NCBI RefSeq assembly: GCF_007097485.1
Contig: NZ_VKDE01000006.1
Coordinates: 62,001 to 126,000 of the forward strand
Origin: Carboxylicivirga sp. M1479
Lineage (GTDB): Bacteria > Bacteroidota > Bacteroidia > Bacteroidales > Marinilabiliaceae
Reading direction: 5' to 3'
DNA length: 64,000 bases
Positions 43,948-63,269 of this stretch are shown here, in pieces (within the stretch, counting starts at the first letter, position 1; every line of letters begins with the position of its first letter). The position numbers and the translations under genes were made by a program. The notes under the pieces are model-generated. The model had not been told where the DNA came from, searched no databases, and was given only the letters and a program-made list of their open reading frames with translations.

Positions 43948-44919
43948 ATGAAAAATATTGGTGTCATTTACGGTGGTTATTCATCCGAAATAATTGTATC
44001 AGAAAAGAGTAAAGAAGGCGTTATGTCCTTTATCGATGAAACCAGATACAACCGTTATCCCATACTAATAAGCCACGACAAGTGGTGCGCTGTAATTGAC
44101 AACCAGGAGTTCCCTATTGATAAAAATGATTTTTCATTTACCAAGGATGACAAGAAGGTAAAGATTGATTTTGCCTACATTACCATACACGGTACACCAG
44201 GAGAAGATGGCTTATTGCAAGGCTATTTAAGCATGCTTAACATCCCTCACAGTACCTGTGATGTGCAAGCTGCGTCAATCAGCTTTAATAAATTTGCCTG
44301 TAATACCTATCTAAAAGGTTTTGGCGTGGCCGTGGCCGACTCAGTATTGGTTCGAAAAGGCAATAGCTACAATGATAAAGACATTGTTGAGCAACTAGGA
44401 TTGCCTTGTTTTGTTAAACCCAATGCAGGCGGTTCAAGCTTTGGCATTTCAAAGGTAAAAGAGGCCAGCCAGCTCAAATCAGCCATAGAAAAAGCATTTA
44501 CCGAAAGTGATGAAGTAATAATTGAACAGTTTATTGGCGGCACCGAAGTAACCTGTGGCTTGTATAAAACTAAGGGCAAACAAGAGGTGTTTCCAGTAAC
44601 AGAAGTGGTAAGTAAAAACGAGTTCTTCGATTTTGAAGCCAAATACACGGCCAGCAAAGTAGAGGAAATAACACCTGCTCGAATTGAGGACGCCGCAAGA
44701 GACCGCATCCAATCCATTTCATCACTCATTTACGACATACTGGGCTGCAAGGGCATTGTGCGCATCGACTACATCATCAGCAATAACAAAATCTTTTTGC
44801 TGGAGGTAAATACAACACCAGGAATGACGGTGACCAGCTTTATCCCTCAGCAGATTGAAGCTGCCGGGCTTAATATCAAAAATGTATTTTCAGAAATTAT
44901 TGAAAACGAGTTGAATTAA
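43948..44919 (+). CDS. ddl: D-alanine--D-alanine ligase
   Basis: This 323-residue ATP-grasp ligase makes the D-Ala-D-Ala dipeptide of peptidoglycan. It shows the N-terminal IGVIYGGYSSE, HGTPGEDGLLQGYLSML, CFVKPNAGGSSFGISKV, EVTCGLY, ARIEDAARD and the C-terminal EVNTTPGMTVTSFIPQQ. Its stop codon abuts the stop of the convergent giant-protein gene with no bases between them and no hairpin, so transcripts from the two sides may overlap. Confidence 0.94.
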   Translation: MKNIGVIYGGYSSEIIVSEKSKEGVMSFIDETRYNRYPILISHDKWCAVIDNQEFPIDKNDFSFTKDDKKVKIDFAYITIHGTPGEDGLLQGYLSMLNIPHSTCDVQAASISFNKFACNTYLKGFGVAVADSVLVRKGNSYNDKDIVEQLGLPCFVKPNAGGSSFGISKVKEASQLKSAIEKAFTESDEVIIEQFIGGTEVTCGLYKTKGKQEVFPVTEVVSKNEFFDFEAKYTASKVEEITPARIEDAARDRIQSISSLIYDILGCKGIVRIDYIISNNKIFLLEVNTTPGMTVTSFIPQQIEAAGLNIKNVFSEIIENELN

Positions 44920-47900
44920 TCAACCAGATATAGTCATCTCAGTTTTATTCACATTAAATACATCAGCATAAATGAGGCGGTCGGTTTGCTCCGACTGCTC
45001 CAATCGATTCTGATACTCAGCAGGCAATCCGGCTATTCGACTAGGCCCTCTTTCATATTCCTCAATAATAATCTGATAAGCATCCTTCTTATACTTGCTT
45101 GGTAGTTTAAATTCTTTGCTTATTAAGTAACGGTTATTACTCACATATTTGGGCGATATACGAATAAGCAATGTCTCTTCTTGCAAATTCTTATCAACAT
45201 TACCATCGTTAACAGTTCCATAAATTGGTCGCGAATATTTCGTATCCTGAAAACTAATCTTCAAAAAATTGTAGTTTCCATACTTGACGTACTTTTCGTC
45301 ATATATAGTTCCTTCTATCGTAATTGTTAATTTATGATGTACATCCGCTTTATCAAAACGTATGGTTGATTGTCTTTCGGGAACCAACTGATTAAAATTA
45401 GCACTTACAACAGGTGACAAACACACATCCTGGTCTTCCTTTCTAACAGAATAAGGCTGATAGCGTGCCAATACCAACTTAACGAACGGGAAATACATAC
45501 TCTGCGGATTGATACGAATATCAGCAAACCACAGCTGCCGCTCATCATCAAACAGCACCGGATAAGCCACTACTTTGGCACGCTTGCTTTTATCTGGATA
45601 TTGCAAACTCTCATCTATCACCGGATTCATATAAAAATCTTCCAGTTTAGGAGAATGCGCCTGTGGTTGCACAGAATACAACAAGGGATCCATGCCCCAG
45701 CTGGTATAATCAGTATCGTACCCAGGCGATTTACTCACAAAATTGGTTGGATTATATCCTTTTTCAGGCAAGACAACACCTAACATCTCATCGTCGCCTG
45801 ATGAGTACCATGGACGCTTAATAAATATCCGTAAGCCTCCTCCCATGCGCTGATGACGCATAGCTGTCTCATTCTGTGTTTTTCGCCATTCAAATGTTGG
45901 AATGATATAATCTATCTCCGGTGCCTTTGGGCGTGCCGAACTCGGAATACTCACTTTTTCTTTCCATTCACTCACTCGGCCAGTTTTCAATTCAGGATTG
46001 GCAGCGAGTATTTTATCAAAGTACTCATCGTATCGTGAGGCGGCCAACAGACGATAATCAACCCAGCGGTGCCGTGTATCACCAAACTGATGCTTCAAAG
46101 GCGCCAGGCGAAGATTAATGCGTTTAAAGAAGTTGAATTTATATTCTTCCACATCAAATTTGACCCGATTAACCAGGTTGTCAACCGCCTTAACCTTTTC
46201 AGATTGAAGCTTCTGATAAGAAGAGTTCTGAGCCTGATAGTCCTTGTTAATGCGTTTGGCCTTAGGCTGTGGCTCTACTTCAAACTCAGACATACTTCTC
46301 ACTGCAAATACCTTCATTGGCTGTTCTTGTATGTTTTGAACAGGCGCCACCTGTAGTTTTTCAGGTTCAGGAACAGTACCTCGTGTAACCACATCGTCGT
46401 GGTAATTTATTATTGTATCCGGAATACTATTGCTTCCCTCCCGCTCTTTGATAGACACAGAAATACCATCATCCCATTGCTCTTTCCAGCGAGCCTGCAA
46501 TTCGACCTTTTCAGTACTCTCACCATGAATATCAAAGCGAATATTAATATCTGCATGATTGGTGGCAAAATCACGATTAGGCAATAAGTCCTCTATCACA
46601 GGTACATCAACAGGCTGCTGCACGGCATGCACCAATTCCATATCTCGCGAAGGACTCACCATCCAGTGGCGCCCCGAAAAGGCCAATTCTTTCGCCTCTT
46701 GAATATCACCTTCCTCCTGCGCCAACTGCCAGATAGCCGATAGTTCTTTCAAATCACTTTCGCGCCAAAACGTACTGAAACGAATTCGTGTACGTATACC
46801 CTTTGGCAGATAAAAAGTCAATTGTTTATCCGAGGCATTCCATTGTGCATTGTACTCCCCTTCTTCCAATTGAATGCGGATATATCCACTTTTGTACCAA
46901 TCTTCAGGTATCTCAATCGCATTCGTTTTATCAGGTTTAATTTCATCTTTTGAAAAGAAACTAAATAAACGAGGTTCAAACTCCTGGGTGTGGGTATTTT
47001 CACAATCATCGGCTAAAAACAAGGCAACACCGGCCGCCATTGGGTCAGGTAAATAAATAATCTCCACATCAGAAGGTTGATAGACCTTTTCTTTATTCTT
47101 CTCGTCCTGCTGATACAAACCTTCATGCTCCGTAATAATCTTATATATTTCTTTTGCTTTTTGCGCATCACCAAAGGCCTTTTCGAACATGCCATGACTC
47201 TCGGCCATTTGCTGACTATTCTTAGGTGGCAATAAATACCTCAGCGAATAAGCATCCTTCGGCTGATTATCAACTATAAAATTAGCTTCATAAGCTTCTG
47301 TCGACTGATCGAAATTGGAGCGAATCACCATACTCTCCAAAAACTCACCATCTTTTAATTGATTACCAACCAACACAATTGGACTCACCAAAGGTTCGTA
47401 ACGCAGGTATTTGATATTCGTTCTTTCTGATGAAGCTTTGTCACTTGTCTTTACTTCATGACTCACGCTGTTTCCTGCTAAATCTACCGTTCTGATGCGT
47501 AAGCGATAGGACCTTCCAAATCGCAGCATAGGCAAAGTACCTGCTACAGTTTTTGATTCGGCATGAATACGGAAATCCAGTTCACTATCATAAGCATACT
47601 TTATATTTTCAAGTGACTTTGATTTATGTACAAAATCCTTCTTTTCAGTCTCACCGTCCTGCAACTCATAATCGTCAGATTCATTGATGGCGTATCCGGG
47701 CTTGCGCACCGACAGGCTCCACCCTTCCCAGCGCGCCATGGTTTCAGATACAAACACATCATCAGGATCATCGGGATCTTCAGTCAGCCCCAACTGTATG
47801 AATCCTTCATCAGGAATAATGCCCTCAATCGGGTGAGGGGTATTGCTCTCGTCGTACCATTGATACATATCCTGTCGCCAGTGCAATGAATGCCAGCTAT

Positions 47901-49290
47901 CCGGTTCCTCCTCATAGGCTATATCCATTCGGTAGCCCTGCACCACATCATCAGAATACAAGGCCTTACTTGGCAATTTTAGCTTAAACGATTTTAATTC
48001 TAACTGCGATTTATTGGATTTAATAGTCTTTAAATCAAAGGACTTCACTTTCACATCCTTAAACTCATTCTTTAGCTCTACATTTCTTTCTATCCGCCTA
48101 AATAAATGTTCTGCCATACCGTTCTTGGTTATGGCAATACCGGCAGATCGCACATAAGGCAAGCCTTCTTCTTGCGGCGGCTCCACCTCATCAAGAATCT
48201 CCTGACGCACTACTTTACTGCGCGATATTTCACTTTTGACTTCATAGAAACGTGCAATCTCCTGAACCTTACTTTCGGTCATGTTATTTGTTTTTAAGGC
48301 AGCTCCGTCAGCATCAATCTGCACCACCTCAAATTCATTGGTATTCACTTTTACAAAACCCTGATTAAAAAGGGAATCTGCTTTATCACGTGTAAAAAAG
48401 CCATCATCCGTAATCTCATAAGCCGTATTTGGTATGGACAAAGCATAATCATCACTCAACTCCAGGTTTTGTGGCACAAGACTGATGGTGCCTTTTTTCG
48501 ACAGCTTATCATCATATGGGATGCTAAAATCCAACACAAAGCCCATTTTTCGCATGATCTGCGGATAACTATTGATGGTTGCAACCACATCGTGAAACTC
48601 AAAGCTTGGTTTCTCTAACTGTATCTTAGGCGTCGTTTTTATGGCTTTATCCACCTTATGAAACTGTCGCAACTCCGCAAAGTCACTTTTGGGATTCATA
48701 TCTTTTTCAAAGCTCTTAAACCTGTTGCTTCTGACTTTTTGGCGAATCTGCACATCCTCATCCTGCTGGCGCATCATAATAGGTGCCGTCGAAGCCTTGC
48801 GCGTTTTATTTTGCGAAACACGCTTGACCTCATCACCTTGCAGTTTATATTGACTAATAGCACCTAATTGTGACTCATCCACAAAGCGTTCTGGCTTTAT
48901 CTTTCGTGATGGATTAACAACAGCCTCCTCCTTAACTGTTTTAAGTATAAAATCCTGCACGTGCTTCACAGGGAAAGAATAGATACGCTTTTGAACGAGC
49001 GCTTCATCATCCTTAAAATCATCTACCTTAATATCAGCATGTAATAAGCGCTGAAAGAGTTCAGAATTAATCTGATTCTTATCCAGCTGAGCTTCCAACA
49101 AGGTGCCATCGTCCATTCGCAATCCAAAGTCAGCATTTAAAACTTTATCGGGCCAGGTCATTATATCCGGAAACGAAGCAAGCGTGGTATCACTAGGTGT
49201 ATTCAGCTTCACCGAAACAAAAACAGACAGCTTAAGAACATCATTGTTCAAATCGTGTTCGTGTGGTAATGTGGTTAGTATAATTTCCAT
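44920..49290 (-). CDS. Giant protein of unknown function, second gene of the two-gene locus (1,456 aa)
   Basis: A 1,456-residue, largely beta-rich, acidic protein with no signal peptide or membrane segment. I prefer the ATG at 49290 to a TTG at 49305, leaving 21 bases to the upstream stop. Recognisable blocks include ARWEGWSLSVRKPGYA (about residue 530), MLRFGRSYRLRIRTVDLAGNS (about 600), YLRYEPLVSPIVL, and LLPPKNSQQMAESHGMFEKA (about 700). The RIRTVDLAGNS block looks like a fibronectin/Ig-like strand pair. From memory, similar blocks occur in long uncharacterised proteins of other phyla, but I could not check. It is co-transcribed with the Tat-exported giant upstream and is probably its partner. 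Confidence 0.6.
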   Translation of the reverse strand: MEIILTTLPHEHDLNNDVLKLSVFVSVKLNTPSDTTLASFPDIMTWPDKVLNADFGLRMDDGTLLEAQLDKNQINSELFQRLLHADIKVDDFKDDEALVQKRIYSFPVKHVQDFILKTVKEEAVVNPSRKIKPERFVDESQLGAISQYKLQGDEVKRVSQNKTRKASTAPIMMRQQDEDVQIRQKVRSNRFKSFEKDMNPKSDFAELRQFHKVDKAIKTTPKIQLEKPSFEFHDVVATINSYPQIMRKMGFVLDFSIPYDDKLSKKGTISLVPQNLELSDDYALSIPNTAYEITDDGFFTRDKADSLFNQGFVKVNTNEFEVVQIDADGAALKTNNMTESKVQEIARFYEVKSEISRSKVVRQEILDEVEPPQEEGLPYVRSAGIAITKNGMAEHLFRRIERNVELKNEFKDVKVKSFDLKTIKSNKSQLELKSFKLKLPSKALYSDDVVQGYRMDIAYEEEPDSWHSLHWRQDMYQWYDESNTPHPIEGIIPDEGFIQLGLTEDPDDPDDVFVSETMARWEGWSLSVRKPGYAINESDDYELQDGETEKKDFVHKSKSLENIKYAYDSELDFRIHAESKTVAGTLPMLRFGRSYRLRIRTVDLAGNSVSHEVKTSDKASSERTNIKYLRYEPLVSPIVLVGNQLKDGEFLESMVIRSNFDQSTEAYEANFIVDNQPKDAYSLRYLLPPKNSQQMAESHGMFEKAFGDAQKAKEIYKIITEHEGLYQQDEKNKEKVYQPSDVEIIYLPDPMAAGVALFLADDCENTHTQEFEPRLFSFFSKDEIKPDKTNAIEIPEDWYKSGYIRIQLEEGEYNAQWNASDKQLTFYLPKGIRTRIRFSTFWRESDLKELSAIWQLAQEEGDIQEAKELAFSGRHWMVSPSRDMELVHAVQQPVDVPVIEDLLPNRDFATNHADINIRFDIHGESTEKVELQARWKEQWDDGISVSIKEREGSNSIPDTIINYHDDVVTRGTVPEPEKLQVAPVQNIQEQPMKVFAVRSMSEFEVEPQPKAKRINKDYQAQNSSYQKLQSEKVKAVDNLVNRVKFDVEEYKFNFFKRINLRLAPLKHQFGDTRHRWVDYRLLAASRYDEYFDKILAANPELKTGRVSEWKEKVSIPSSARPKAPEIDYIIPTFEWRKTQNETAMRHQRMGGGLRIFIKRPWYSSGDDEMLGVVLPEKGYNPTNFVSKSPGYDTDYTSWGMDPLLYSVQPQAHSPKLEDFYMNPVIDESLQYPDKSKRAKVVAYPVLFDDERQLWFADIRINPQSMYFPFVKLVLARYQPYSVRKEDQDVCLSPVVSANFNQLVPERQSTIRFDKADVHHKLTITIEGTIYDEKYVKYGNYNFLKISFQDTKYSRPIYGTVNDGNVDKNLQEETLLIRISPKYVSNNRYLISKEFKLPSKYKKDAYQIIIEEYERGPSRIAGLPAEYQNRLEQSEQTDRLIYADVFNVNKTEMTISG

Positions 49291-49311
49291 ATCAATGTGC
49301 TTCAATTGTTA

Positions 49312-52300
49312 TTACCCAGCAAATGCCATACAGTATTCCTGCCAGTCATCTTCATCAATCATTTCAATAAACTTAGGATCGGCATCTGCCCCTTTCAACT
49401 CACGACGCACCGTTACCGAAACCGTTTTACTAAAGAACAACACCTCCACTTTCACTTTGATGGTGGCCACACCTTCTAGCTTTTGCACTTTACCTTCTGA
49501 AAAGACAGCAATAAAAGCTAAATAGAACTCCATGGAGATGGATATAATTCCTAAAATAGATAAGTGTCCATTGATGCGTATGTAACCAATAATAGTTGAT
49601 GAGCCAATCTCTTCCACCACATCGCCATCAGGCGTAGGTAATACTTTCTCAATAATTTCAAACTTATAATAAATGCCACCCATGACCGATACTCCACCTG
49701 ATGCCACTCCCACGTTCAAGGAGATAGCGGCTCCAAATTCCAAAGCTGCTTCAATGGACTTAAGGCCTTTTAACGTGGTGATCATCATGAAGTAACCACC
49801 GCCACCAAAACAAGAGATGGTCAGCATAAATGGGTTCTCACGCTTGCAGAAGTTAAAGCCCATTTCCAATGGCGCACCGGTAAACGGCAAGGTAACGTGG
49901 GCTCCCAAACTAATGTTGCTAATCATGCATATCCCCACCTCCACATTAGGTATACCAATGGTAAAACCGGCCGTAACCTGCGTAGGCTGTAGCTTGATGT
50001 AAGGGCCATCATCAGAGAATCCAGTGCTTGGAATAATGTTCTGCAGGTTATTCACAAAACTCAATGCTCCCTTAAACTGAATAGGATTATCTGCATCAAT
50101 ATCCACCTTCACATTTGTTTTCTGCGCATTACCAGTTTTAAACTCCATAAAATTAAAGTTAACCGCTAGCAATGGCACCAGATCAATCCCAAACTTCTCA
50201 AAGCGAGCTGATCCGGTGAAAGAAGCCTCTTTAGAGCCATCAAATGGTTTTTCCAGCGATGTGGTAATGGTTAATGCTTTAGTCGGGTCATCCACCCGTA
50301 CATGCAGAATATCGTCAATAACCTTAATCGGGTTGGACTTAAACTCAGGCTGCCATTTATATTCGGCATAGAAAGCCTCAGCCGTCACAAAGGTTTTAAA
50401 GTTTGGTATTTTAGGAATGTTGCCATTGAGCATATCCAAGAGCTCATCCGTTTTATCCTTTATGTTTTGTTTAAGAACGTTAATCTGCTCACTTAAGTCT
50501 TCCTGCAATTCCCTGGCCTGATTCTCCAGATAAAGAATCTCCGTCTTGATATCCTCTATCTCGTGCTTAGTTTGCTTAGTCGCATTTTTAATACCATCAA
50601 AAGCATCGGCCAGATTCATGTCTCCCAGCAGTAAATCAAATATCTTAATAACGCCAAATATCTTCGCCACAGGAAAATCTTCCAAAGCCTTGAAGAAGTC
50701 ATCCGGATTAAATGCCAGAGCTTTACTATCCGTTAACTCGCCACCCACTGGCCCCTGCAACTTACTCAAGGCCGAAATACCCATATTGGGCGACATGAAG
50801 CCACCTGCTTTGTCGGAACCATTGGAAAAGTCCACCACCGCATCTTTCACCGAGGCAAAAACAGTTCCTTCATTGTTATCATCTTCCAACTGTATGGCAG
50901 CTGCCTGGCGTACCCCAGTCATCTCATTCAACTGTTTGATAAATACTTTGGCCTCTTGAATGATGGGATGAAACTTTATATCAGCCTCTCCGCTGGCAGG
51001 ATATACCTCAGCACCAAAATGAATAGTCTTAGTTTCAAAGGAGGTATCACCATCCAACATACTTTCGGCATAGGCTATGTCCTGCTCATTCAAATTCATG
51101 TTATTATACAATTCATTGGGATTGTATTTTTCAATGATCTGCTGAACCAGATTACTCTTTCGAGCTACTTTGTTTTCCAAAAACACCAGCGGCATACGCA
51201 AAGCATGCTCAAGACCTTCCTTATCGGTAACGACTAAATCAAATGGAAAGCCTTTTTTATTAACATTGATGTAAAAGTTATAAGATGTATTGCCACCGCT
51301 GCCAAACTTCTTGGTCTGGCCCGTTAGCGACATCACTTTCATCTCATTGCCACCCGAAGGCACATTAATAATAGGCTCTTCCAGCGGATTATCGATATTG
51401 GGCGTTTGAGTGGTATTAATCTGCACCGCCTGAAAAGCAAAGGGGATAAATTGACTATTCGGATTGTTACGCGCATAAACAACTTCCTTCTCCAACACAA
51501 CAATATACATACGCTGGCGATTAACGGCCGCTTTTGTCTCTTTGTGAAACTTACGCTCCGTTACCTTCACCAAAGCCGCCCGGTGTCCGAATGGAAACAG
51601 GTAACCCTCACGAACAACCTTCACATAATGGTCGCGCCCCAATGTTGCCAGGTGCTCCCACTCAATAATGTTCAACTCCGTATCCGCCGGCAAAGGCACA
51701 TCAAAAAAGGAATGCCAATCGAGGTAAGCACCCAGTGATGTGAGCATCAGATTTTTCACCTCCACCGCTTTAGGGTAATACTGAGGTATGGAATAGTTGG
51801 AGGTGGTATGCACCAGCACATGACGGTCGTTACCATCCAGAGAAGCCATAAAAGGCTTACCCAATGGTGGCAATATTTTATAATCGGCATTGGCTTCATC
51901 GGCCCACAAAGCCCTTATGGTTTTAAAAGCCGATAATTCACGTGTAGTCTTGCCGTTTTTCAACTTAACACCCAATATCGTATGCCACAGCTCAGCTACC
52001 TCGCCTTTATTAGTACTTAAATTATCAGCCGCTAAATTGAAATTAGCCGGCCCCTTACCTATTAGTTTCGATACTTCCTGATGCTCGCGCAGCTGTAATA
52101 CTTTTTTATGGATAAAATCACTGACCTGATTAGGCGATATATACATTAGGGTAGGTGCCTCGATGGAGGTGTCAGTTGGCGGCACAGGCTCTACATTCAG
52201 GTTAATCTTTTTTACCGCATGAATATTAAACCCGGGCTTAATGGTTTGAACCTTGTCCGATGCTAGTAATCTGCCCAACTGTCCATCATCGTACAATGTT

Positions 52301-54054
52301 GGTTTTACACTTTTATTGCGCGAGTGTGAATACAGCTTAATGGCATAATCTTTCGATTCTTTATCGAGGTATTCACGTTTTTTTGTTGGCACATCAGCCT
52401 TAGTAGTATTGTAGTTGGTTCGCCCCAGCTGCTTCTTTTGAGGTATTTTAATCCATGCACGTGGATTAACACGTAGCTTTAGATTTTTCCAACTCAAGAG
52501 ATGCTCAATAGACAAGGGTATGCCTTTACTTTTGGCAGGTAATTCGTATACCAAGCGACTTTTACGAGCACGCAAATGTTTGGCTGGCAAAGTAACGCTA
52601 TCGGAACTGCTGACACCCGGTATTTTGTTCGACTCAAAAAAGGCCTCTTCCAAGGTATGCTGCGAAGTAAAGGAGATAATGACCAGGCCTTTCTTATTCG
52701 AATTTGTTAACTCAGCAAAGGAGATGGCTCCCTGTCGCACCATTGAGAAGTTGTGCAATTCAAACTCTAATATCAACATGTCCTCAGGCCGAAGTATTCT
52801 AAATCGAAGTGCTTTCTTAGGTTTAAAAACTACTTTATCTTGCGCCACCACTAATTGACTAGTAGTCGTTTTTTTCTTCTTAACTGGTTCCTGTGGCTGT
52901 ATATCAATTAAGTCAGTTTCTTTGTTTGCACTTAAAACCGTGGCCCCACCAATGAGAGGCTGAAAATCTACTAATTGAGGCTGAAAACGTTCACTATCGA
53001 TACCTTGTAAACTCCCATAATATTCATAATCTGGCAAATCGGATGCATGATTTAAACGAAAAGAACCCAGATCACTTGGCAACCAACAATCAACAACACT
53101 CGCTGTCAGGTAAACCTGAGGCTCCTGATGCAAGTAATACTCAGTAAAAAGGAATGCTTTGGCAAAGGCCCTATCCATTTTGCCAATACGGTGATTGATG
53201 CGCCCTTCAGAATCATTGGTCCACATTACCAGCTCGTCTGAGAGCTGTAAATTAACATCAGGCAAGTGCGAACCGGCCTGCGCCAGGTGATGCGATGGCA
53301 AATGAATATTTACAAAACGGTACCATTCATCAAACTCTTCGAATTGAATATAGGTGCTTTCCAATGATCGCACCTTCAAAAATGAATCATCTTCAATAGC
53401 CGGACTTATACACATTGAACCAGTAAGGTATCGCCCACTTACATTTTTGAAAACAATGGATTGAGGCGACACAATGCTCATCTTCCAATCAGCGTTCAGA
53501 GTACAAGAGGAGCTAGTTTCAATTGAAATATTTGCTACTTGCTTATTAACAATGAGTAATGGCTGAATGCGTCCTTTTAGTTCTACACCACCGTCTAGCC
53601 AGGCTATAAAATCAACTTCCTGAGAAATGTTTAAGTCAGGTATTTCAATGCTACAGCGCCACTCCCCTCTGAGTAAGAATACACGTGCCTTGAGTGAAAA
53701 ACGAATATTAGTGTGGTGATACTTCAGGTTGTTGGCATGGATCAGATATTGCTCTTTGGTCTTCTCCAACCTAAGCTGATAACCATCGGAAAATACCTTA
53801 TCAGAAACTTCCCAAACAGTTTTACCATTGCGCACTACAGATAACTTATTCTTACGCTTTGTGATGACGAAGGGCTTGCGCGATAAGGCGAAGGCCGACT
53901 CTATCAAGGGGCTCCATGCGATGGCACCAAAGCCTATTATCTTTAGAAATGAGCGCCTTGATGATGACTGATCGCTCACTTGCTGATGCGTAACTTGCTT
54001 ACGACATGCTTTTACTTTTAAATACCTCAAACCCATAACATCCACATTTGGCAT
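49312..54054 (-). CDS. Giant Tat-exported protein of unknown function, first gene of the two-gene locus (1,580 aa)
   Basis: A 1,580-residue protein with a perfect twin-arginine signal: SRRSFLK at residues 32-38, a hydrophobic stretch and an AFA cleavage site near 56. It should therefore be exported folded or with a bound partner. The body is beta-rich. Around residues 805-840 is a conserved-looking block (GRDHYVKVV..GYLFPFGHRAALVKVTERKF). A coiled coil lies at about 1180-1240. The last ~300 residues are glycine-rich amphipathic strands (e.g. FGGGGYFMMITTLKG), somewhat like DUF6603 proteins or a surface-lying beta sheet; that likeness is weak. The following giant gene is 21 bases away. Function unknown. 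Confidence 0.65.
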   Translation of the reverse strand: MPNVDVMGLRYLKVKACRKQVTHQQVSDQSSSRRSFLKIIGFGAIAWSPLIESAFALSRKPFVITKRKNKLSVVRNGKTVWEVSDKVFSDGYQLRLEKTKEQYLIHANNLKYHHTNIRFSLKARVFLLRGEWRCSIEIPDLNISQEVDFIAWLDGGVELKGRIQPLLIVNKQVANISIETSSSCTLNADWKMSIVSPQSIVFKNVSGRYLTGSMCISPAIEDDSFLKVRSLESTYIQFEEFDEWYRFVNIHLPSHHLAQAGSHLPDVNLQLSDELVMWTNDSEGRINHRIGKMDRAFAKAFLFTEYYLHQEPQVYLTASVVDCWLPSDLGSFRLNHASDLPDYEYYGSLQGIDSERFQPQLVDFQPLIGGATVLSANKETDLIDIQPQEPVKKKKTTTSQLVVAQDKVVFKPKKALRFRILRPEDMLILEFELHNFSMVRQGAISFAELTNSNKKGLVIISFTSQHTLEEAFFESNKIPGVSSSDSVTLPAKHLRARKSRLVYELPAKSKGIPLSIEHLLSWKNLKLRVNPRAWIKIPQKKQLGRTNYNTTKADVPTKKREYLDKESKDYAIKLYSHSRNKSVKPTLYDDGQLGRLLASDKVQTIKPGFNIHAVKKINLNVEPVPPTDTSIEAPTLMYISPNQVSDFIHKKVLQLREHQEVSKLIGKGPANFNLAADNLSTNKGEVAELWHTILGVKLKNGKTTRELSAFKTIRALWADEANADYKILPPLGKPFMASLDGNDRHVLVHTTSNYSIPQYYPKAVEVKNLMLTSLGAYLDWHSFFDVPLPADTELNIIEWEHLATLGRDHYVKVVREGYLFPFGHRAALVKVTERKFHKETKAAVNRQRMYIVVLEKEVVYARNNPNSQFIPFAFQAVQINTTQTPNIDNPLEEPIINVPSGGNEMKVMSLTGQTKKFGSGGNTSYNFYINVNKKGFPFDLVVTDKEGLEHALRMPLVFLENKVARKSNLVQQIIEKYNPNELYNNMNLNEQDIAYAESMLDGDTSFETKTIHFGAEVYPASGEADIKFHPIIQEAKVFIKQLNEMTGVRQAAAIQLEDDNNEGTVFASVKDAVVDFSNGSDKAGGFMSPNMGISALSKLQGPVGGELTDSKALAFNPDDFFKALEDFPVAKIFGVIKIFDLLLGDMNLADAFDGIKNATKQTKHEIEDIKTEILYLENQARELQEDLSEQINVLKQNIKDKTDELLDMLNGNIPKIPNFKTFVTAEAFYAEYKWQPEFKSNPIKVIDDILHVRVDDPTKALTITTSLEKPFDGSKEASFTGSARFEKFGIDLVPLLAVNFNFMEFKTGNAQKTNVKVDIDADNPIQFKGALSFVNNLQNIIPSTGFSDDGPYIKLQPTQVTAGFTIGIPNVEVGICMISNISLGAHVTLPFTGAPLEMGFNFCKRENPFMLTISCFGGGGYFMMITTLKGLKSIEAALEFGAAISLNVGVASGGVSVMGGIYYKFEIIEKVLPTPDGDVVEEIGSSTIIGYIRINGHLSILGIISISMEFYLAFIAVFSEGKVQKLEGVATIKVKVEVLFFSKTVSVTVRRELKGADADPKFIEMIDEDDWQEYCMAFAG

Positions 54055-54984: not shown

Positions 54985-55133
54985 TCATCCCGCTGGGATG
55001 AAAATTATAAAGTGAATGAAAATACGCTATAAATGTTTTATTCAGCTGAAGGACAACATCATGTGCATCTGATGCCGGAGGCATCACATATCTATAAAAA
55101 ATATTCTACCAGAAATAATAACTCCAGCGGAGT
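54985..55133. repeat. Composite palindromic intergenic element, copy 1
   Basis: Three short palindromes in order: TCATCCCGCTGGGATGA (54985), TGATGCCGGAGGCATCA (55070) followed by CATATCTATAAAAAA, and ACTCCAGCGGAGT (55121). The same three in the same order occur at 58820-58961. Confidence 0.8.
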
Positions 55134-55476
55134 TGAAGATACATCAAAAAAATGCTCAACAAACAGAATTACTTACATCCTACAAAAAAAGATGCTGGAG
55201 GTACCCCACACGAACCACACAACACCGATTATCATCCCCTTAATACAAAAAAACTACACGATTTCTGAGCCTGCCTAGTACATCATCACTACTTAGTTAT
55301 TCTTTTAAGATGTTTCTGATTATACCTTTGCGGCATAACAAAAGGGCTATATAAACCCTTCGTACTTTCTAATAAACGTATTAATGTAAGCCATTAACAC
55401 TTAAATAAAAACAGTATTTTAAACACTATTAGCTTATTTAATTCGAATAGTATTTTATTTTCGAAAAAGATTTTCA

Positions 55477-55734
55477 CTACACTGACAATTCGAGTTCTGG
55501 CGATAGTTCGAGGACCTTCTTTAATTTTAATTTAAACAGACTTGAGGGTGTTTCATCCTCCCAATTAAGCTTACCATATTGCCTTAACCAGTTTAAAATG
55601 GTCATTTTACCGCGTATGCTATACTTCGCTCTCGCGACCGTTACACTTATCAGGCCGTGCTCAATCTCGTGTACAATATGTAACTTTAAAGGTACGCGAT
55701 GAGCTTGATCTACATTTCTACCTGGCTTGTTCAT
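55477..55734 (-). pseudogene. Transposase OrfA-like remnant (IS3-type helix-turn-helix)
   Basis: The 85-residue frame from the ATG at 55734 contains VPLKLHIVHEIEHGLISVTVA, then RAKYSIRGKMTILNWLRQYG. This is the helix-turn-helix pattern of IS3-family OrfA proteins. The family's C-terminal leucine zipper is replaced by an unrelated tail. No OrfB (DDE integrase) follows and no terminal inverted repeats were found, so this is most likely a dead fragment. A domesticated small DNA-binding protein is the alternative. Confidence 0.6.
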
Positions 55735-55850
55735 ACGTGATTTTTTTTTGAAGAATGATTTAGTTATCCTAAATACCATTACAGTATTAATAAATTGAAC
55801 AAGAAAAGGGAGTATTGGCAAATACCCCCTTTAATATGATATTATACAAT

Positions 55851-56876
55851 TTAGTCAGTAATTTCTAAATCAACATTTTTATTTGACCATCCATCCCATG
55901 TAAAATTGAACATGTCTACGTTAGTCATTAAAGCCTCGTCGTTAACTACAACTCTTACCCACTTGCTAGTACCAGCTTCAATCTTCGTATAATCAGTATC
56001 TAGCATAATCCACTTCACAGGCACATAATTACCACCTTCATAAGAGTAAATCTCAACAGCAATTGGCAAGCATTTCCCTACTGTTGCATCTGCATTTGAC
56101 CAATAAACAGTACCTAAATTTTCATTCGAAGTAAAAAAACGATCCCAATTATTTCTAATTTTAAGATAGTCGTAATCAACACCAACGTTATTCATATCAA
56201 CAGGTTCTTGATAAAACAAACGAGCATGATAATTATCTATTAGTGATGGCTTTTCAAATTCGAACGTTACGATCAACTGTCCAAAAGTGGTTGACATATG
56301 AATAGGAATTTGAGTAGGAGAAACAGCATATGCATCATTAATGACTATCGGACTAGACTCACCACTAAACTCAACATAAGGCACCACGTTTGTACGCAAT
56401 TGCTCTGCCATAACTGTTGGCGACCAGCTTCCACCAGGTCTAACATCTGTAAAAGCAACAAGACCAGGAGCAACCTCTTTGTAAACTCCACTTGGATAGA
56501 TCATATCACCAAAGAATACTTTATGATCACCATAAGAAGGTGTTGCAATAGTCGTGGCCTTAGTTGTTGCTGAAAAAACATTAGTTCCATACCATACATC
56601 AGAAAGCATTGGAGCTGCCATACCTGAAGCATCATCTACAATCGTAAAGTCAGCAGACACATCTGGGTGTACCGACTCGGCCAATATACTCATTTCACTA
56701 ACAGTAACAGGAATACTTCCTCTATTAAGATCTCCGCTTTTTAAGCCTGTTTCTGTAAGTCCATCAACAACATTAAATTGAACATCAGTAGTTTTTGTGT
56801 CACTTACTCTGTCTTCTTTCTGGCAAGCAGAAAATACTAATGCTGCGGCTGCAGCAAATAAAAATACTTTTTTCAT
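55851..56876 (-). CDS. Lipoprotein of unknown function (341 aa)
   Basis: This 341-residue protein has a lipoprotein signal (MKKVFLFAAAAALVFSAC, Cys18) followed by QKED. The mature part is beta-rich with several short Gly/Ser/Pro turns and few Cys, as in surface lipoproteins and fimbrillin-like proteins of Bacteroidota; no definite family was recognised. It stands alone between the OrfA remnant and the LuxR-type regulator. Confidence 0.7.
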   Translation of the reverse strand: MKKVFLFAAAAALVFSACQKEDRVSDTKTTDVQFNVVDGLTETGLKSGDLNRGSIPVTVSEMSILAESVHPDVSADFTIVDDASGMAAPMLSDVWYGTNVFSATTKATTIATPSYGDHKVFFGDMIYPSGVYKEVAPGLVAFTDVRPGGSWSPTVMAEQLRTNVVPYVEFSGESSPIVINDAYAVSPTQIPIHMSTTFGQLIVTFEFEKPSLIDNYHARLFYQEPVDMNNVGVDYDYLKIRNNWDRFFTSNENLGTVYWSNADATVGKCLPIAVEIYSYEGGNYVPVKWIMLDTDYTKIEAGTSKWVRVVVNDEALMTNVDMFNFTWDGWSNKNVDLEITD

Positions 56877-57038
56877 AGTTAATAAGTTTGAATAAAAAAT
56901 TTATAAAAATAATTGTTGGTTAATTAGTATGAGATTTAGGATTTGGGTGTTTTATTCTCAGACTTAAAAACCTTTAACAAACTTATGGTGGTATTTTTCG
57001 AAGTTCAATAACCCCAAAGCGGTATTTTACAAAAACAC

Positions 57039-57758
57039 CTAATTTAATAAACTAGATTGCCCTGCTATAAAGGCGAGGCTAGCCGTATTTTTCACATTCA
57101 GCTTCTTAAGTATATTCTTACGGTGCTTCTTGGCTGTGTGTAGGCTAATGAATAATTTCTCACCAACTTCCTTATCTGTTTTTCCTTGAACTATCAACTG
57201 AAGCACCTCTCGCTCACGTTCAGATAAAGCAATTATCATTTGTTGATAGTGTTCTACCTGATCGAGCTCATCCTCAGTATTATTTTGCAGGGGTGAGTGT
57301 TTCATTTGCACACCAATACGAAAGTGATTGGCATGACAGCCCTCAATCTCAGGTTTAACAACTAAAAACTGATACGAACGGTATGAACCGTGATTTTTAA
57401 AGCGAAGCACACCGTTTAAAAATGGTGCATGCCCTTTCTTTTGGGCAATACGCTTTACCACCATTAAACGACGTACATCATCATCATGCATGCGAGAAAC
57501 AATCAAACGCCGCATAGCTGGCCATTCAAATAGTTGTCTTTTTATTCCGTTACTTTCTAAAAAACGCTCATCCGCATAAACAATACCCTCCTTTTTTGTG
57601 TCGTATAAAAAGACACCCATATGCAATGAATCAGGAATCACCTGCAAGAAATAATTGGATTTGAGAAAGGTGTTAACAATATTCTTATAAAAAGCATACT
57701 TACGCAAGTTCCCCTTACATGCCTTATTTTTACAGATTTGTTCGCAATTGAAATTCAT
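57039..57758 (-). CDS. LuxR-family transcriptional regulator with PAS-like sensor region
   Basis: A 239-residue regulator (ATG at 57758; the longer frame adds 36 unlikely residues). The C-terminal GerE/LuxR helix-turn-helix is clear: LSEREREVLQLIVQGKTDKEVGEKLFISLHTAKKHRKNILKKLNV. The N-terminus has a Cys-rich patch (CEQICKNKACKG). A PAS-like region follows (about 40-150; MGVFLYDTKKEGIVYADERFLESNG). Such PAS-LuxR regulators are frequent in Bacteroidota. Control of the adjacent lipoprotein gene is possible but only inferred from position. Confidence 0.82.
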   Translation of the reverse strand: MNFNCEQICKNKACKGNLRKYAFYKNIVNTFLKSNYFLQVIPDSLHMGVFLYDTKKEGIVYADERFLESNGIKRQLFEWPAMRRLIVSRMHDDDVRRLMVVKRIAQKKGHAPFLNGVLRFKNHGSYRSYQFLVVKPEIEGCHANHFRIGVQMKHSPLQNNTEDELDQVEHYQQMIIALSEREREVLQLIVQGKTDKEVGEKLFISLHTAKKHRKNILKKLNVKNTASLAFIAGQSSLLN

Positions 57759-58725
57759 AGGTATAGAGTTTGGTAGATACTCCCAACAAGTAAAAGCCAT
57801 GTGAAAATAAAGAATAATTCTTTTACATAAGCAAAACAACATAACTTCAATAGCGTAATAGCACATTGATTCGTCACAAAAAAACAGCTATTCATGTATT
57901 TTTTTTTCATTTTTGTCAATAACATTTACTTGTTAGCCAAATAGAAAAAATTATTCAATTCCAACTTATGATAAAATAGCTCAAAACAGATCTTGTCAAT
58001 TAACTAATACCGCCCTTACACACAAAATACCTCTTCCTTACAAGGCAAAAAATTGGATACAATAACGTTTATGAGATAACTACATTTCTTTTCTTCGCTT
58101 AAGGATGATTCAAAATTGAAAGAACACCTGCGCTGTAAATACATAACGACAACCAAGGCAACTATCGAATGAATGCCCCCGGAGCAAGCTCTGAGGTATC
58201 AAGTGGCATTAATCAAAAATAAACTATATCTCAATTTACGTAGAAGAGTAGATATTTTAGAAAACCATGTAAAGCCCCTACTCGGGTCGTGCAGGGGATC
58301 GACTCGCAAATAAGTCAATAATTAAGTATAAATCACACATAATTTAGTCATTGTTTCATCAATTGTAATTGAGCAAACATTGAGTAAACTTCGAAGGAAC
58401 TTTGAAGATACTATGACCTTAATGCGAGTAAGTCCCCTGTTTGGTAACTGCCAGACCATACTATGCCTAAGATGAAATGGGAGCATAAGCATCAACTCCA
58501 TAGAAGTTACAATTTAGATATTGCTATTTTCTCTATATATACATGTGATGCCGCAGGTATCTTTTCAGTCTATTACGGCTGTATGTGAATTATTGTCGAA
58601 TACTCACGAAATACTTTATCATTAAGCATTACTGTACTGCTCTCTAAAGAAACAAATCGAATTTCTTCTAACTACTTGCCAACTCACCTTGTGTTAAATC
58701 CTAAAACGATCATCTTATGAGCTTG

Positions 58726-58961
58726 TCATCCCAGCGAGATGAAATTTTTATAGATGATTGGATATTCAACTCCAGAGGAGTTGATACCCTTTTCTTGACC
58801 CAGATATTTTATAGATGTATCATCCCGCTGGGATGAGTGACATGTCGTTGACGAAAGACTGTGACAACATTTAATACGACTGGGATCACGATTCACTGAT
58901 GCTGGAGGCATCACATATTTATAAAAAACAAGGCCTCTCGAAACAACAACTCCAGCGGAGT
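58726..58961. repeat. Palindrome cluster including composite element copy 2
   Basis: Five palindromes: TCATCCCAGCGAGATGA (58726), ACTCCAGAGGAGT (58769), TCATCCCGCTGGGATGA (58820), TGATGCTGGAGGCATCA (58898, followed by CATATTTATAAAAAA) and ACTCCAGCGGAGT (58949). The last three repeat the order seen at 54985-55133. The second-to-third distance is identical in both copies (51 bp). Confidence 0.8.
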
Positions 58962-59115
58962 TGAATCTCCATCTCACACCTTAATAAAGAATGATTAGCA
59001 ATGAATACCTAACAAAACATGCTCTCTTTTCGCCTATACCTTCACTTAAGCTATCCACGTTCTTCGGTAAATAATATTTGTTGTATTGGTGACTAATTAA
59101 CTGCTCGTCGACTCA

Positions 59116-59193
59116 GCATCGTAGCTGCATCGTACCGGCATCGTATCTTGTTCGGTACGGCTTCGCTAGCGCGCGTTGCCGAAGAAGATACGA
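59116..59193. repeat. Inverted repeat with triplicated GCATCGTA motif
   Basis: GCATCGTA occurs three times at 11-bp spacing from about 59117. The third copy runs into a 15-bp arm TCGTATCTTGTTCGG (59141-59155) that pairs with 59179-59193 with one mismatch around a 23-nt loop. No T-run follows, so it is not an obvious terminator. Confidence 0.65.
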
Positions 59194-59570
59194 CCAAGAC
59201 CCCTAGCGGACTCCTAGCAGACACGACCAGGCTCCAAACGAGCACCAAAAACCAAAACATCAGTCCCGCAATGCCCAGGTATTTTAAAGACTATTTATGG
59301 CTCTTAAACAATTCGACTGGTACGGTGTATCGAGACAGATGAGATCGTTGAAATTCACTCAAGCATTAGCGATTGAAAATTGGATGTTTAGATTGGTGTG
59401 CATGATCAGTCTACTCAAATCTTTCATCTCTCCCCTAATTTGGGCAAGCCAGAAAGTATCAAGTATCAAGATTTGAGTATCAAGACTATTGCCGGCTCGT
59501 TAAAAAATTCTGCCTAAAAATACAAGAATCATTAATAATAGAAGCAGGGAATTCGCTTATAAGCATTTTA

Positions 59571-59672
59571 ACCACCTCCCCACTTCGTGGTACTCCTCCT
59601 TGGCAATGAGGAGAGGGATGAAAAACCGTCCCCTCCTGAATTTTAGGAGGGGTGCCGACAGGCGGGGTGGTG
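59571..59672. repeat. GC-rich nested hairpin element
   Basis: The inner 8-bp stem CCCCTCCT/AGGAGGGG (59630-59652) lies within an outer ACCACC/GGTGGT pairing (59571-59672). I associate this CCCTCCT...GGCGGGGTGGTG design with multicopy intergenic elements of Bacteroidota, from memory only. Confidence 0.55.
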
Positions 59673-59959
59673 TAATTAGTTATAAAAGCAATTTCCCTGA
59701 TAATAAAAGCCTGAATAAGTAGGAAACGGATGTCATCTTTATGAGTTAACTGCTATTAATGATGACATCCGTCTGTGCTATTAATATGCCAGGCAAGCTG
59801 ATGAAATAGCTATCTCTCGCATATGGCACGGCGCGACAGTGAGTGATGAACACGCTAACACAAGAGCGATTGCATGCCTGTCAATCGGGCGGTTGAACGA
59901 TTGCACCCGTGATAAGTGTGCCAGATCAACAAATCAAAAAAGACAAGTAGAAGAAAGGC

Positions 59960-60089
59960 TTAAGCTTTTCACTCCTTTCCATTAGCCTTTTACTTAAAAA
60001 GGTTTAAGCTTTGCAACTAAAAGTCTTAAGCTTTATCATGAAAACCCTAAGGCTTTGAATGCATTGCCTAAGGGGAGTCGAAAAAATGG
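59960..60089. repeat. Phased 22-bp degenerate tandem array, six units
   Basis: Units start at 59960, 59982, 60004, 60026, 60047 and 60068 (steps 22, 22, 22, 21, 21). Most begin TTAAGCTTT or a close variant (TTAGCCTTT, CTAAGGCTTT). The second half of each unit varies but is A/C-rich. It resembles the 21-bp array at 14490 in period and in starting with TAA, but not in sequence. Confidence 0.75.
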
Positions 60090-60189
60090 CTTTTTTTAAC
60101 AAGAATGACGATCATTTGTCTGAGGATTAGAACAGACTATTTGGAGGACATACATTATAATATTAAGTGAATTGTGAGGTTTTGAGTAT

Positions 60190-60217
60190 GAAAAAAGCCG
60201 GCGGGTGCCGGCTTAAA
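60190..60217 (-). terminator. Rho-independent terminator of the lipoprotein operon
   Basis: An 8-bp stem AAGCCGGC/GCCGGCTT with a 4-nt loop, followed on the minus strand by six T. It lies ~25 bp after the last lipoprotein stop. Confidence 0.85.
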
Positions 60218-60239
60218 CATTACCTCTGATTTAAAATTA

Positions 60240-61787
60240 TCATGGATCAACTACGGTGAACATTATCTGCACTCTATTTGCTTCTTGTCCATCATAAAAG
60301 AAAATTGCCGCCCATTCACCTGGTTTAGGGATGTACCCACTACCTAGTGAAGTCGCATTATCACGTAGTGATTGTGCGTCGCCACTTACACCAACACCAT
60401 CGGTAATCGACCAAATGGCATTTTTAATTACATTACCATATGTTCCTGGTGCACTATAATCAAAGTCCCCAATTACATCTTTAATATGGTTAAACAAATA
60501 ATTTAACTTTTGAATCTTCAACAGATCAAGGTGTGTCTCAGATAATAAATCCGGATCAATATTAAGCGATGAATATGCTTTTACTGTATAAGGTGTATTC
60601 AACCAAATATTCTCAAATTTATCACCACACCATCCGCCTAATTTGGTGCCATTAGTAAGAAAATCATATCCAGTACTTGATGCTCCTGTAAACTCAAGAC
60701 CTACATAATATCCATCAAAACCACCTCGTACAATCATTGTCAAATCTCCTTGTGGTATATTCTGATGTGGCAAGAATGTATAATCAGGATCATCATATGA
60801 ACAATTACCAATTACAAAGTCTACAACTCCATCATCTGTATCTGCATCAAACATATTTGTTTGTGGATATGTAGGATCTGTAGTTCCAATTGCATCATCA
60901 TTAAACATCCAAGTTTGTTGTTCCACATATGTTAATTCATCACCTATTGGCAACAACACCTCAAGAACAAGCTTGTAATCTTCATCTTTTTCATCATAAT
61001 CTCCCCAGTATACTTGCATACAATCTCCAACTCCTGGCGTATTCCAATCTGCATTTGTATAAGTCCTAACTAATGAAAACTCAGTTTCTCCATCGGTAAG
61101 ATTCTTCTTATAAACACTTACTTGCATAATTGCTGCAAGGTCATAATTGCCTGCTTGACCAAAATATGGTGAATTATCAAAAATGTACTGCTCTAACTTT
61201 CCTGTGCATATATCACCGAAGAAACATAAGCTTTTAACCGTCATTAAATCTAATTTGAACCACGTAAATCCAAAATTCTCATAGAAAAGATCTTCAAAGC
61301 AGAGAACATCAATAGCAGCTTCTATTTTCTTAAATTTCTCTACAGTAACGACTAAGTCTAATCTTCTTTCAGGACTAGCAAAGTACCAATAGTCACTTTC
61401 AAATTCCGGGGCAGCCCTAACAACAACACCGCCATTATCAGGGTGTGCATCGTACACTAAAAATTTATTTATAGTTATATCAGTGGTTTCATCTTGCCCC
61501 ATTAATATTTTAAAGGGCTGAGTTACATATTTGTTATTCGCAAAAAATATTTCAACAATCTTATCTTCAGCTTCTCCAACAATACCAATAACAGCAAATT
61601 TCAATGGAGCATCACTACACTCAGGAAAATCGCCTGGTGTACCCGGTGCTCCTTTCAATGTCACAAAATCGGCTTCATTGACACTAAAAGACACTTCTGC
61701 GAATTGCTCTTCAGGTCCGCTTACTTTTTCATTACAGCTGCTTAGGATTAAAGCAAAGGCTGCCATTAACATTACAATTTTTCTCAT
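60240..61787 (-). CDS. Lipoprotein with thioester-domain-like C-terminus, paralogue 3 (515 aa)
   Basis: A 515-residue lipoprotein (signal MRKIVMLMAAFALILSSC). Residues ~20-340 are shared with the two upstream proteins: KYVTQPFKI, the acidic IDVLCFEDL-YENFGFTWF block and DFVIGNC. The C-terminal ~170 residues differ: GGWCGDKFENI...KLNYLFNHI...NAIWSITDGVG resembles thioester (TED) domains of surface adhesins. In those, Cys and Gln form an internal thioester; here the Gln position before AIW appears to be Lys, so the bond may not form. Location: outer membrane or surface. It is the last gene of the operon. Confidence 0.7.
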   Translation of the reverse strand: MRKIVMLMAAFALILSSCNEKVSGPEEQFAEVSFSVNEADFVTLKGAPGTPGDFPECSDAPLKFAVIGIVGEAEDKIVEIFFANNKYVTQPFKILMGQDETTDITINKFLVYDAHPDNGGVVVRAAPEFESDYWYFASPERRLDLVVTVEKFKKIEAAIDVLCFEDLFYENFGFTWFKLDLMTVKSLCFFGDICTGKLEQYIFDNSPYFGQAGNYDLAAIMQVSVYKKNLTDGETEFSLVRTYTNADWNTPGVGDCMQVYWGDYDEKDEDYKLVLEVLLPIGDELTYVEQQTWMFNDDAIGTTDPTYPQTNMFDADTDDGVVDFVIGNCSYDDPDYTFLPHQNIPQGDLTMIVRGGFDGYYVGLEFTGASSTGYDFLTNGTKLGGWCGDKFENIWLNTPYTVKAYSSLNIDPDLLSETHLDLLKIQKLNYLFNHIKDVIGDFDYSAPGTYGNVIKNAIWSITDGVGVSGDAQSLRDNATSLGSGYIPKPGEWAAIFFYDGQEANRVQIMFTVVDP

Positions 61788-61832
61788 GATACTGCGTATT
61801 AGATTAATAAATAAAAATATTGGGTATTGTAT

Positions 61833-63236
61833 TTAGTTACAATGAGGCACACTCAAGAACCCATTGTTATAATTATCGAGTACTTTAGCCCATGCAATTA
61901 GATCAACAACAGTCGGATCTGTAGGTGCCATAGCTGCAATTTGAGCAGGGGTATAATTTTGAAATAAAATAGTCGCAGAATTAAATTCACTTACAATATC
62001 TGAATCATCTGCACCTTTAAGTATATTAAGTTTAGCAGCTATGTATTGCCGTGCCAAAATGTAATACTTACTTGCATTGGAAGGGGTATTAATTACCGTA
62101 TGATACGATTGATTTGAAAGGAAAAACAATGTACCTTCGCCAATGCTCGCCCAAGTAGGGTCATATGGAGCAGGCCCCAATGCTGAATGTGTTCGCCAAT
62201 ATCCTTGAGTATACGTACAACCCACTTCATCTTGCGGGTATTCTACATCGGTAACTGTTACTAAACAATCTCCTATCACAAAATCATTGACTCCATCGTC
62301 ACCCGGATCAGGACAATTACCATCCGTAAAAATATATTCATCAATTAGAGTATACTCCACCCCATTATCTCCTGGTAACATCACGTAAAGTTCAAACTTA
62401 AACCACTCAACTACATCTTCATCGTTGGGCCAGTATACTTCTAAACAATTCCCTTCTGCTGGATAAGGATCCCAATCATTCGTAAATTCTCTAATCAAGT
62501 TCCAAACAGAACCATTCTCATCTTCACCAACTTTTTTAAACACATCAATCCGCATGATGGCTGGCATGTCGAACTGAATTCCATTTTGCTGATACTTATA
62601 TCTAGAATCCTCATACAAAGAGAAGTCTGTCACGCAAATATCTCCAAACCAACATTGAGACTCAACCCTTACCAAGTTTAACTCAAACCAAGTAAATCCA
62701 AAATTTTCATACCGCAATTCATCAAAACACAAAACATCAATTTCAGCTTCAACTTTCTCAAAATCTTTTATTGTGATCTCTAAGTTTAAATCATTATCAG
62801 GCGAAACAAATTCATAATACAAACTGCCAGGCAGAGGCGCAGCCCTGACTATTTTATCGGCTGGATCATGTCCATTTTTATTATCATCGTTATAAACGAT
62901 AAAACTCGTAATGGTTAGCTTATCTTCACTTAGGTTAAGTTCGTCCACTTCATCATAAAGACTTACTTTGATTGGTTGAGTAACAAATTTACCATTCGCA
63001 CTAAAAATCTCAACCTCAAAAGGGGTAGCTATACCATCAATCATAAATATTGCATAATCCATTGGCAAATCACTGCAAACTGGAACATCTGCCAGATTAT
63101 TTTTCAGTGTATTAAATCCTACATTATCTACCGTAAATGATATTTCAACCGCCTTCTGCTCCGGGCTTCCCACTTTTTCGTTACAGCTACTCAAAATAAG
63201 AGCGAACGCTGCCATTAACATCACTATTCTTTTCAT
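61833..63236 (-). CDS. Lipoprotein with CTYTQGYW C-terminal domain, paralogue 2 (467 aa)
   Basis: A 467-residue lipoprotein (MKRIVMLMAAFALILSSC, nearly identical signal to its neighbour). It shares the N-terminal ~330 residues with paralogue 3: KFVTQPIKV, IDVLCFDELRYENFGFTWFELNL and DFVIGDC. The C-terminus is a different domain beginning CTYTQGYWRTH and containing SKYYILARQYIAAKLN and a final FLSVPHCN. Domains with this CTYTQGYW opening appear in secreted proteins of several phyla as far as I recall, with no known role. The gaps to its neighbours are 33 and 45 bp, so one operon. Confidence 0.75.
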   Translation of the reverse strand: MKRIVMLMAAFALILSSCNEKVGSPEQKAVEISFTVDNVGFNTLKNNLADVPVCSDLPMDYAIFMIDGIATPFEVEIFSANGKFVTQPIKVSLYDEVDELNLSEDKLTITSFIVYNDDNKNGHDPADKIVRAAPLPGSLYYEFVSPDNDLNLEITIKDFEKVEAEIDVLCFDELRYENFGFTWFELNLVRVESQCWFGDICVTDFSLYEDSRYKYQQNGIQFDMPAIMRIDVFKKVGEDENGSVWNLIREFTNDWDPYPAEGNCLEVYWPNDEDVVEWFKFELYVMLPGDNGVEYTLIDEYIFTDGNCPDPGDDGVNDFVIGDCLVTVTDVEYPQDEVGCTYTQGYWRTHSALGPAPYDPTWASIGEGTLFFLSNQSYHTVINTPSNASKYYILARQYIAAKLNILKGADDSDIVSEFNSATILFQNYTPAQIAAMAPTDPTVVDLIAWAKVLDNYNNGFLSVPHCN

Positions 63237-63269
63237 GTTGTTATGTTTTAGGATTATTAATATCTATGA

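Follow-up and report, generated by a model that had tools for sequence, protein, structure and literature searches.

Tat is an export route for folded proteins, and in the Escherichia coli complex PaoABC partners that carry no signal ride on the subunit with the Tat signal, as described in PMC4273604. The same paper states that no upper size limit of Tat has been determined. Of two reviews, one, from 2026, cites FdnGH (142 kDa) to illustrate how large known Tat substrates can be, and the other gives a range of "up to 150 kDa" (PMC13186574, PMC6708511).

We analyzed a pair of giant genes, here called A and B, in a 64,000-nucleotide stretch of the genome of Carboxylicivirga sp. M1479 (hereafter the window). 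As in the Tat hitchhikers PaoABC, HybOC, and FdnGH of E. coli, a subunit bearing a twin-arginine (RR) motif is accompanied by a signal-less partner, and genes A and B are adjacent. Whereas the known hitchhikers are cofactor-containing enzymes, A and B showed no redox or cofactor family, their interaction is putative, and their predicted masses of 177 and 169 kDa compare with totals of 135 kDa for PaoABC and 142 kDa for FdnGH. The window's A shares with ordinary Tat substrates the RR motif, an uncharged segment, an AxA-like site, and the presence of TatC in the host; it differs from them in its giant size and, in the Bacteroidota copies, in a conserved extension of approximately 23–42 residues before the RR, and one plasmid pair has its own tatA. 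Cargo of Type IX secretion also includes large envelope-type proteins of Bacteroidota, but the A-B family is found in Pseudomonadota and Actinomycetota as well. NCBIfam, which we take to hold models of the Type IX sorting domain, gave no match at all for A or B at E values up to 1, a C-terminal sorting domain included.

Layout and sequence character of the locus

The original prediction described two same-strand genes of 1,580 and 1,456 codons, 21 bases apart and convergent to ddl. Both were found as intact open reading frames with this spacing (Table 1), and the end of B lay directly against ddl (43948–44919). B would have 1,461 codons if it started at the alternative TTG at 49305 instead of the ATG at 49290. 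For A, the ATG at 54036 (residue 7) is a more likely start than that at 54054, since homologues begin there with MGLRYL or a similar sequence. The predicted masses of the two proteins sum to 346 kDa. Conservation across three phyla, Bacteroidota, Pseudomonadota, and Actinomycetota, ruled out A and B as chance reading frames.

Table 1. Positions of genes A and B and of their sequence features in the window
Feature	Position	Strand	Size or basis
Gene A, giant protein with predicted Tat signal	49312..54054	−	1580 aa (1574 aa from conserved ATG 54036), 177 kDa
N-terminal extension and predicted Tat signal peptide of A, residues 7–56	53887..54036	−	Sequence; RR in 20/25 aligned Bacteroidota N-termini
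SRRSFLK of A, residues 32–38	53941–53961	−	Sequence
AFA cleavage-like site of A, residues 54–56	inside 53887..54036	−	Sequence
Coiled-coil-like segment of A, approximately residues 1144–1205	50440..50625	−	Weak coiled-coil-type matches, Pfam and PDB
C-terminal domain of A, approximately residues 1225–1580	49315..50382	−	Best conserved part of A (alignment, 20 sequences)
Conserved C-terminal tail of A, WQEYCMAFAG	49315..49344	−	Alignment of homologues
Gene B, giant partner, export signal not recognizable	44920..49290	−	1456 aa, 169 kDa
Conserved GTLPMLRFGRSYRLRIRTVDLAGNS stretch of B, residues 584–608	47467..47541	−	Aligned with distant B-like family

The beta-rich repeats that had been proposed for A were not borne out as repeats, as self-comparison of A and of B gave no internal sequence repeat in either protein. 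The C-terminal domain of A is probably beta-rich, since a low-confidence structure model consisted mostly of strands in this part; the two fragment models, for which the alignment input was three close sequences, had mean pLDDT values of 35.6 and 28.9. The proposed glycine-rich C-terminus held in a moderate form, with 17% glycine in residues 1381–1460. In the C-terminal tail of A, AFA or CFA stood within the last 10 residues in 27 of 31 homologues, the four exceptions being rhizobial and Ruegeria plasmid copies of the Tat type.

Neither A nor B gave a family over the cut-off in Pfam or NCBIfam. When the window's proteins and their homologues, 17 A and 18 B in all, were searched against Pfam at E 0.01, the only match was in one Streptomyces B, a peptidoglycan-binding insertion that was set aside as just below the cut-off (22.1 of 23 bits). 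In PHROGs, B had no match and A had two weak coiled-coil-region rows (E 0.06 and 0.11), and in PADLOC the two proteins gave weak rows or none. PDB profile searches with A and B likewise returned weak rows, none over the cut-off: those of AvrSr35, a viral fusion protein, and pantothenate kinase were considered noise at E 0.14 or worse, as was a trimeric-adhesin row (E 0.009) that covered the coiled-coil stretch alone. No toxin or defence family was matched in Pfam, NCBIfam, or PADLOC, and no cofactor family that could explain the use of Tat was found in Pfam or NCBIfam. No homology was detected between A and B when they were compared with each other. A structural protein of a phage or an injection machine was also considered and rejected, as the PHROGs search, a search of phage records with A (no match), and scans of viral contigs with two peptide patterns each (no relative confirmed) gave no support to it. 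A word search of open-licence papers showed no description of the pair among the papers listed, which falls short of proof. The proposal of an undescribed system thus fits the searches made: A and B are protein families without a match in the libraries searched, and the mode of export proposed for them is of a known kind.

Distribution and co-inheritance of the pair

Whether homologues of A and B occur alone was checked in Bacteroidota. Among 100 relatives, A was present in 11 genomes, one of them the window's, and B in the identical 11. When 395 genomes from across the phylum were searched, A was detected in 19 (again with the window's genome) and B in 21 at E 0.001, of which 18 were below 1e-80 and three near 1e-4. 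All 18 genomes with a strong B match were among the 19 with A, and the A match of the sole exception, G330, lay 125 bases from the end of its contig, on the side where B would be expected. In the fetched B-bearing loci of the phylum, A was directly upstream wherever the contig extended far enough. A and B therefore co-occur in Bacteroidota and are adjacent as far as the contigs reach.

Among 72,556 plasmid records searched by tblastn, A was found in 14, B in 13, and both in 10, from Rhizobium, Sinorhizobium, Cupriavidus, Diaphorobacter, and Streptomyces. Two of the four A-only records (L137 and L138) had at the place of B a giant gene missed by tblastn, a third (L136) had two shorter ORFs there, and the remaining one looks like a remnant, as do two of the three B-only records. 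Most single-gene plasmid records therefore look like diverged or broken pairs. In three plasmid pairs the summed mass reached 523–572 kDa, with A alone accounting for 331–363 kDa.

For comparison of the two proteins, we used a set of 31 pairs comprising 7 from the genus, 3 from the same family, 11 from the phylum, and 10 from plasmids. Loci truncated or broken over contigs (L048/L049, L072, L094, L100, L107, L109, and L113), loci in which A or B was frame-broken or split (L056, L104, L108, and L136), repeat genomes (L026 and L027), remnants or ambiguous cases (L111 and L139–L142), a distant pair described below (L112 and L114), and a second Cupriavidus record were omitted, while L098 and L099 were kept although their B reaches the edge of the contig. 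The assignment of B in L137 and L138 relied on its location and on 23 alignment columns that did not vary among all 24 rows. The order was A then B on the same strand in all 31 pairs, with a spacing of −4 to +45 bases in 26.

The distance matrices of A and B were correlated with r 0.966 across the 31 pairs from three phyla, and none of 10,000 permutations of the labels exceeded 0.457, the highest value obtained. The correlation was 0.941 after near copies were removed (25 rows) and 0.990 inside the genus (7 rows, p 0.0015); inside one family it was weak (0.69, p 0.035, 5 rows). Shared ancestry by itself raises such correlations, so that these values indicate joint travel of the two genes and not contact between their products. 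In the six other members of the genus, identity to the window's proteins was 52–78% for A and 60–81% for B, and B was the more conserved of the two in every one of them. The pair is real and old, a two-gene unit of wide distribution that has no description in the sources searched.

Two of the three genomes with a weak B match, G175 and G260, contained a distant pair of approximately 1760 and 1400 aa in the same order as A and B (L112:7852–17357 and L114:6871–16350); the third was G220. In hhalign, the second protein of this pair aligned with B at 91% probability over 160 columns, and the first aligned with A at 31% probability over 83 columns, at the C-terminus. From these alignments, the distant pair, which has no Tat signal, is probably a sister family to A-B.

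Export signals and neighbouring genes

The SRRSFLK motif and AFA site that had been noticed at the N-terminus of the window's A were present, separated by an uncharged stretch. Among the 31 A sequences, 24 had an RR at the signal position, and in 22 of these it was followed by an uncharged 13-residue stretch with a mean hydropathy of 1.13–2.10; the other two (L052 and L054) had no such stretch after the RR. When any RR in the first 110 residues was counted, the number was 26, those of L058 and L061 not being at the signal place. A Tat signal was missing from A in 7 of the 31 pairs. In the alignment of Bacteroidota N-termini, all sequences outside family f59 carried the RR, whereas the five f59 sequences retained the N-terminal extension and the domain and lacked the RR segment. 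Mapping of the trait on the B tree needed three changes, the placements of which are unsure owing to long branches. Five alphaproteobacterial plasmids and one from Streptomyces likewise encoded an A with a Tat-type signal.

TatC (PF00902 over the cut-off) was detected in all 38 genomes tested, including the window's genome and the f59 hosts. Lack of a host Tat system was thereby ruled out as the reason for the Tat-less A of f59, and the seven A without a signal, together with TatC in the f59 hosts, indicated that export is not essential to the A family. On plasmid pC of Sinorhizobium meliloti, tatA begins 49 bases after B (Pfam TatA_B_E, 36.7 bits, cut-off 21). The conserved RR, the general presence of TatC, and the tatA beside one plasmid pair uphold the Tat reading of A, and from such sequence features a Tat export route for A in most lineages is well supported.

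The first 70 residues of the window's B, which had been described as having no export signal, contained no RR and no run of 13 residues free of charge. In the same region of the 31 B sequences, an RR occurred in 4 and an uncharged stretch in 9. Because hydropathy alone separated the proteins poorly, with B reaching up to 1.25 and Tat-type A going down to 0.90, we added a combined test for an RR followed by an uncharged stretch, which was negative in all 31 B. In L061 and L098, B had an uncharged stretch that matched some A signals in hydrophobicity, with no RR before it, so that a complete lack of signal is not demonstrated for these two.

The statement that there are no accessory genes agreed with the loci seen in this genus and failed in other families, where accessory genes recur. 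In the window, a variable island (55477–63998) with a LuxR-type regulator (57039–57866) and several lipoproteins lies between ddl and genes on the side of what is presumably gcvP. At the ddl site of nine genomes of the genus, seven had ddl followed by the gcvP-adjacent gene with no A-B between, G009 had the LuxR-lipoprotein island without A-B, and G004 had ddl in other surroundings; in G004 and in G007, which was one of the seven, A-B was at another place. The LuxR and lipoprotein genes were dropped as parts of the system on account of G009. Within the genus, the gene positions show that A-B behaves as a two-gene cassette. Separately, a trio of short palindromes (CATCCC..GGGATG, ATGCC or ATGCT..GGCAT, and AACTCC..GGAGTT) occurs at 54986–55134 and again in the same order at 58821–58962, flanking the lipoprotein and LuxR genes; these look like interspersed repeat elements.

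In other Bacteroidota families, a protein of 620–700 aa that had no family match in the libraries looks like an outer-membrane barrel. Strong matches to it were found in 11 of 31 genomes searched: its gene was near A-B on the same contig in eight, on a contig with another piece of A in G480, and on other contigs in G311 and G464. Four genomes of the window's family gave weak matches (E 4e-22 to 1e-5), and the window's genome gave none. A second neighbour gene encoded a conserved N-domain of approximately 280 residues. RCC1 repeats came after it in both proteins scanned and, as judged by BLAST, in the full-length relatives of these, and were missing from two short versions. This N-domain had no library match and no detectable homology with B. 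Genes of these two kinds were beside or near the pair across L094, L095, L096, L101–L103, L105, and L106. In G027, the gene of an unrelated 440-aa barrel-like protein (L050:5313–6635) stops 26 bases ahead of the A ORF. On the plasmids, an ORF for an astacin-like peptidase overlaps B by 4 bases in Rhizobium phaseoli, and the Ruegeria pair is accompanied by a peptidase annotated as M35 and by small proteins that look secreted. Such exported-looking neighbours favour a function of A-B outside the cytoplasm.

Interpretation of the pair

The original prediction was partly confirmed in what it observed, the locus being real in outline, and partly supported in how it interpreted the pair. We infer that A and B would form a single, very large complex in which each is an obligate subunit. 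A would bring the sole recognizable export signal, a twin-arginine signal peptide after the conserved N-terminal extension; B would bind A in the cytoplasm, the two folding together, and the signal would deliver A to Tat, so that B would cross the inner membrane as a hitchhiker in the folded assembly. Outside the cytoplasm the pair would provide a scaffold for structure or binding, and lineages may have added exported partners of their own to it: the barrel-like and RCC1-propeller proteins in several Bacteroidota families, and the metallopeptidases on one rhizobial and one Ruegeria plasmid. In signal-less lineages, the complex would act inside the cell or exit by another way. Piggyback export of B is plausible, and for the whole reading, a single complex exported folded by Tat with B riding on A, we regard the chances as evenly balanced. 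The main objection to it is size, since 346 kDa, and 523–572 kDa on the plasmids, is far above 142 kDa.

B might instead be a cytoplasmic folding chaperone or an export-proofreading partner, with A exported alone. The lack of an RR-type signal in every B and the position of B beside A throughout the pairs compared are what a dedicated chaperone would show, but B is also retained in all seven pairs in which A has nothing to proofread, and it is nearly as big as A and better conserved across the genus, whereas known Tat chaperones are small. These points weaken the chaperone role that had been suggested for B, and we consider it unlikely. The retention, size, and conservation of B also weaken the suggested immunity role, under which A would be an exported toxin-like protein. 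Adjacent genes, a patchy distribution, and plasmid copies suit a toxin with its immunity partner; immunity proteins, however, are usually small and variable, whereas B has 1456 aa and is the more conserved member, no toxin or defence family was matched, and every B in the Bacteroidota sample had A alongside where the contig reached. This arrangement is thus very improbable.

A further alternative concerns A itself. The RR segment could be mainly a membrane anchor or dispensable; the A-B complex would then act at or within the cytoplasm, and some lineages would have Tat export as a side feature. The seven signal-less A speak for this, as do the five f59 sequences, which preserve the extension and domain and lack the RR segment. 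Against it are the RR in the other 20 aligned Bacteroidota N-termini, its recurrence in Pseudomonadota and Actinomycetota, and the tatA and secreted proteins that adjoin pairs, and we judge that it probably does not hold.

Returning to the export of a folded A-B complex, few cargoes of this route may be as large as the pair; if the reading is true, a Tat cargo of 346–572 kDa would be several times the largest known. More tentatively, and with the balance of doubt against it, the pairs could found a class of giant envelope machines with two subunits that has not been described before. Such machines would occur on plasmids and in at least three phyla, would pass through Tat whole and folded at 346–572 kDa, and in one case would be equipped with a dedicated pore-widening TatA. 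A alone, at 177 kDa and at 331–363 kDa in three plasmid copies, offers a test case for a Tat cargo more than twice the known size, and the pair bears on whether Tat passes oversized cargo with or without a signal-less partner. Two large gene families that are absent from the libraries searched would thereby gain a first testable role.
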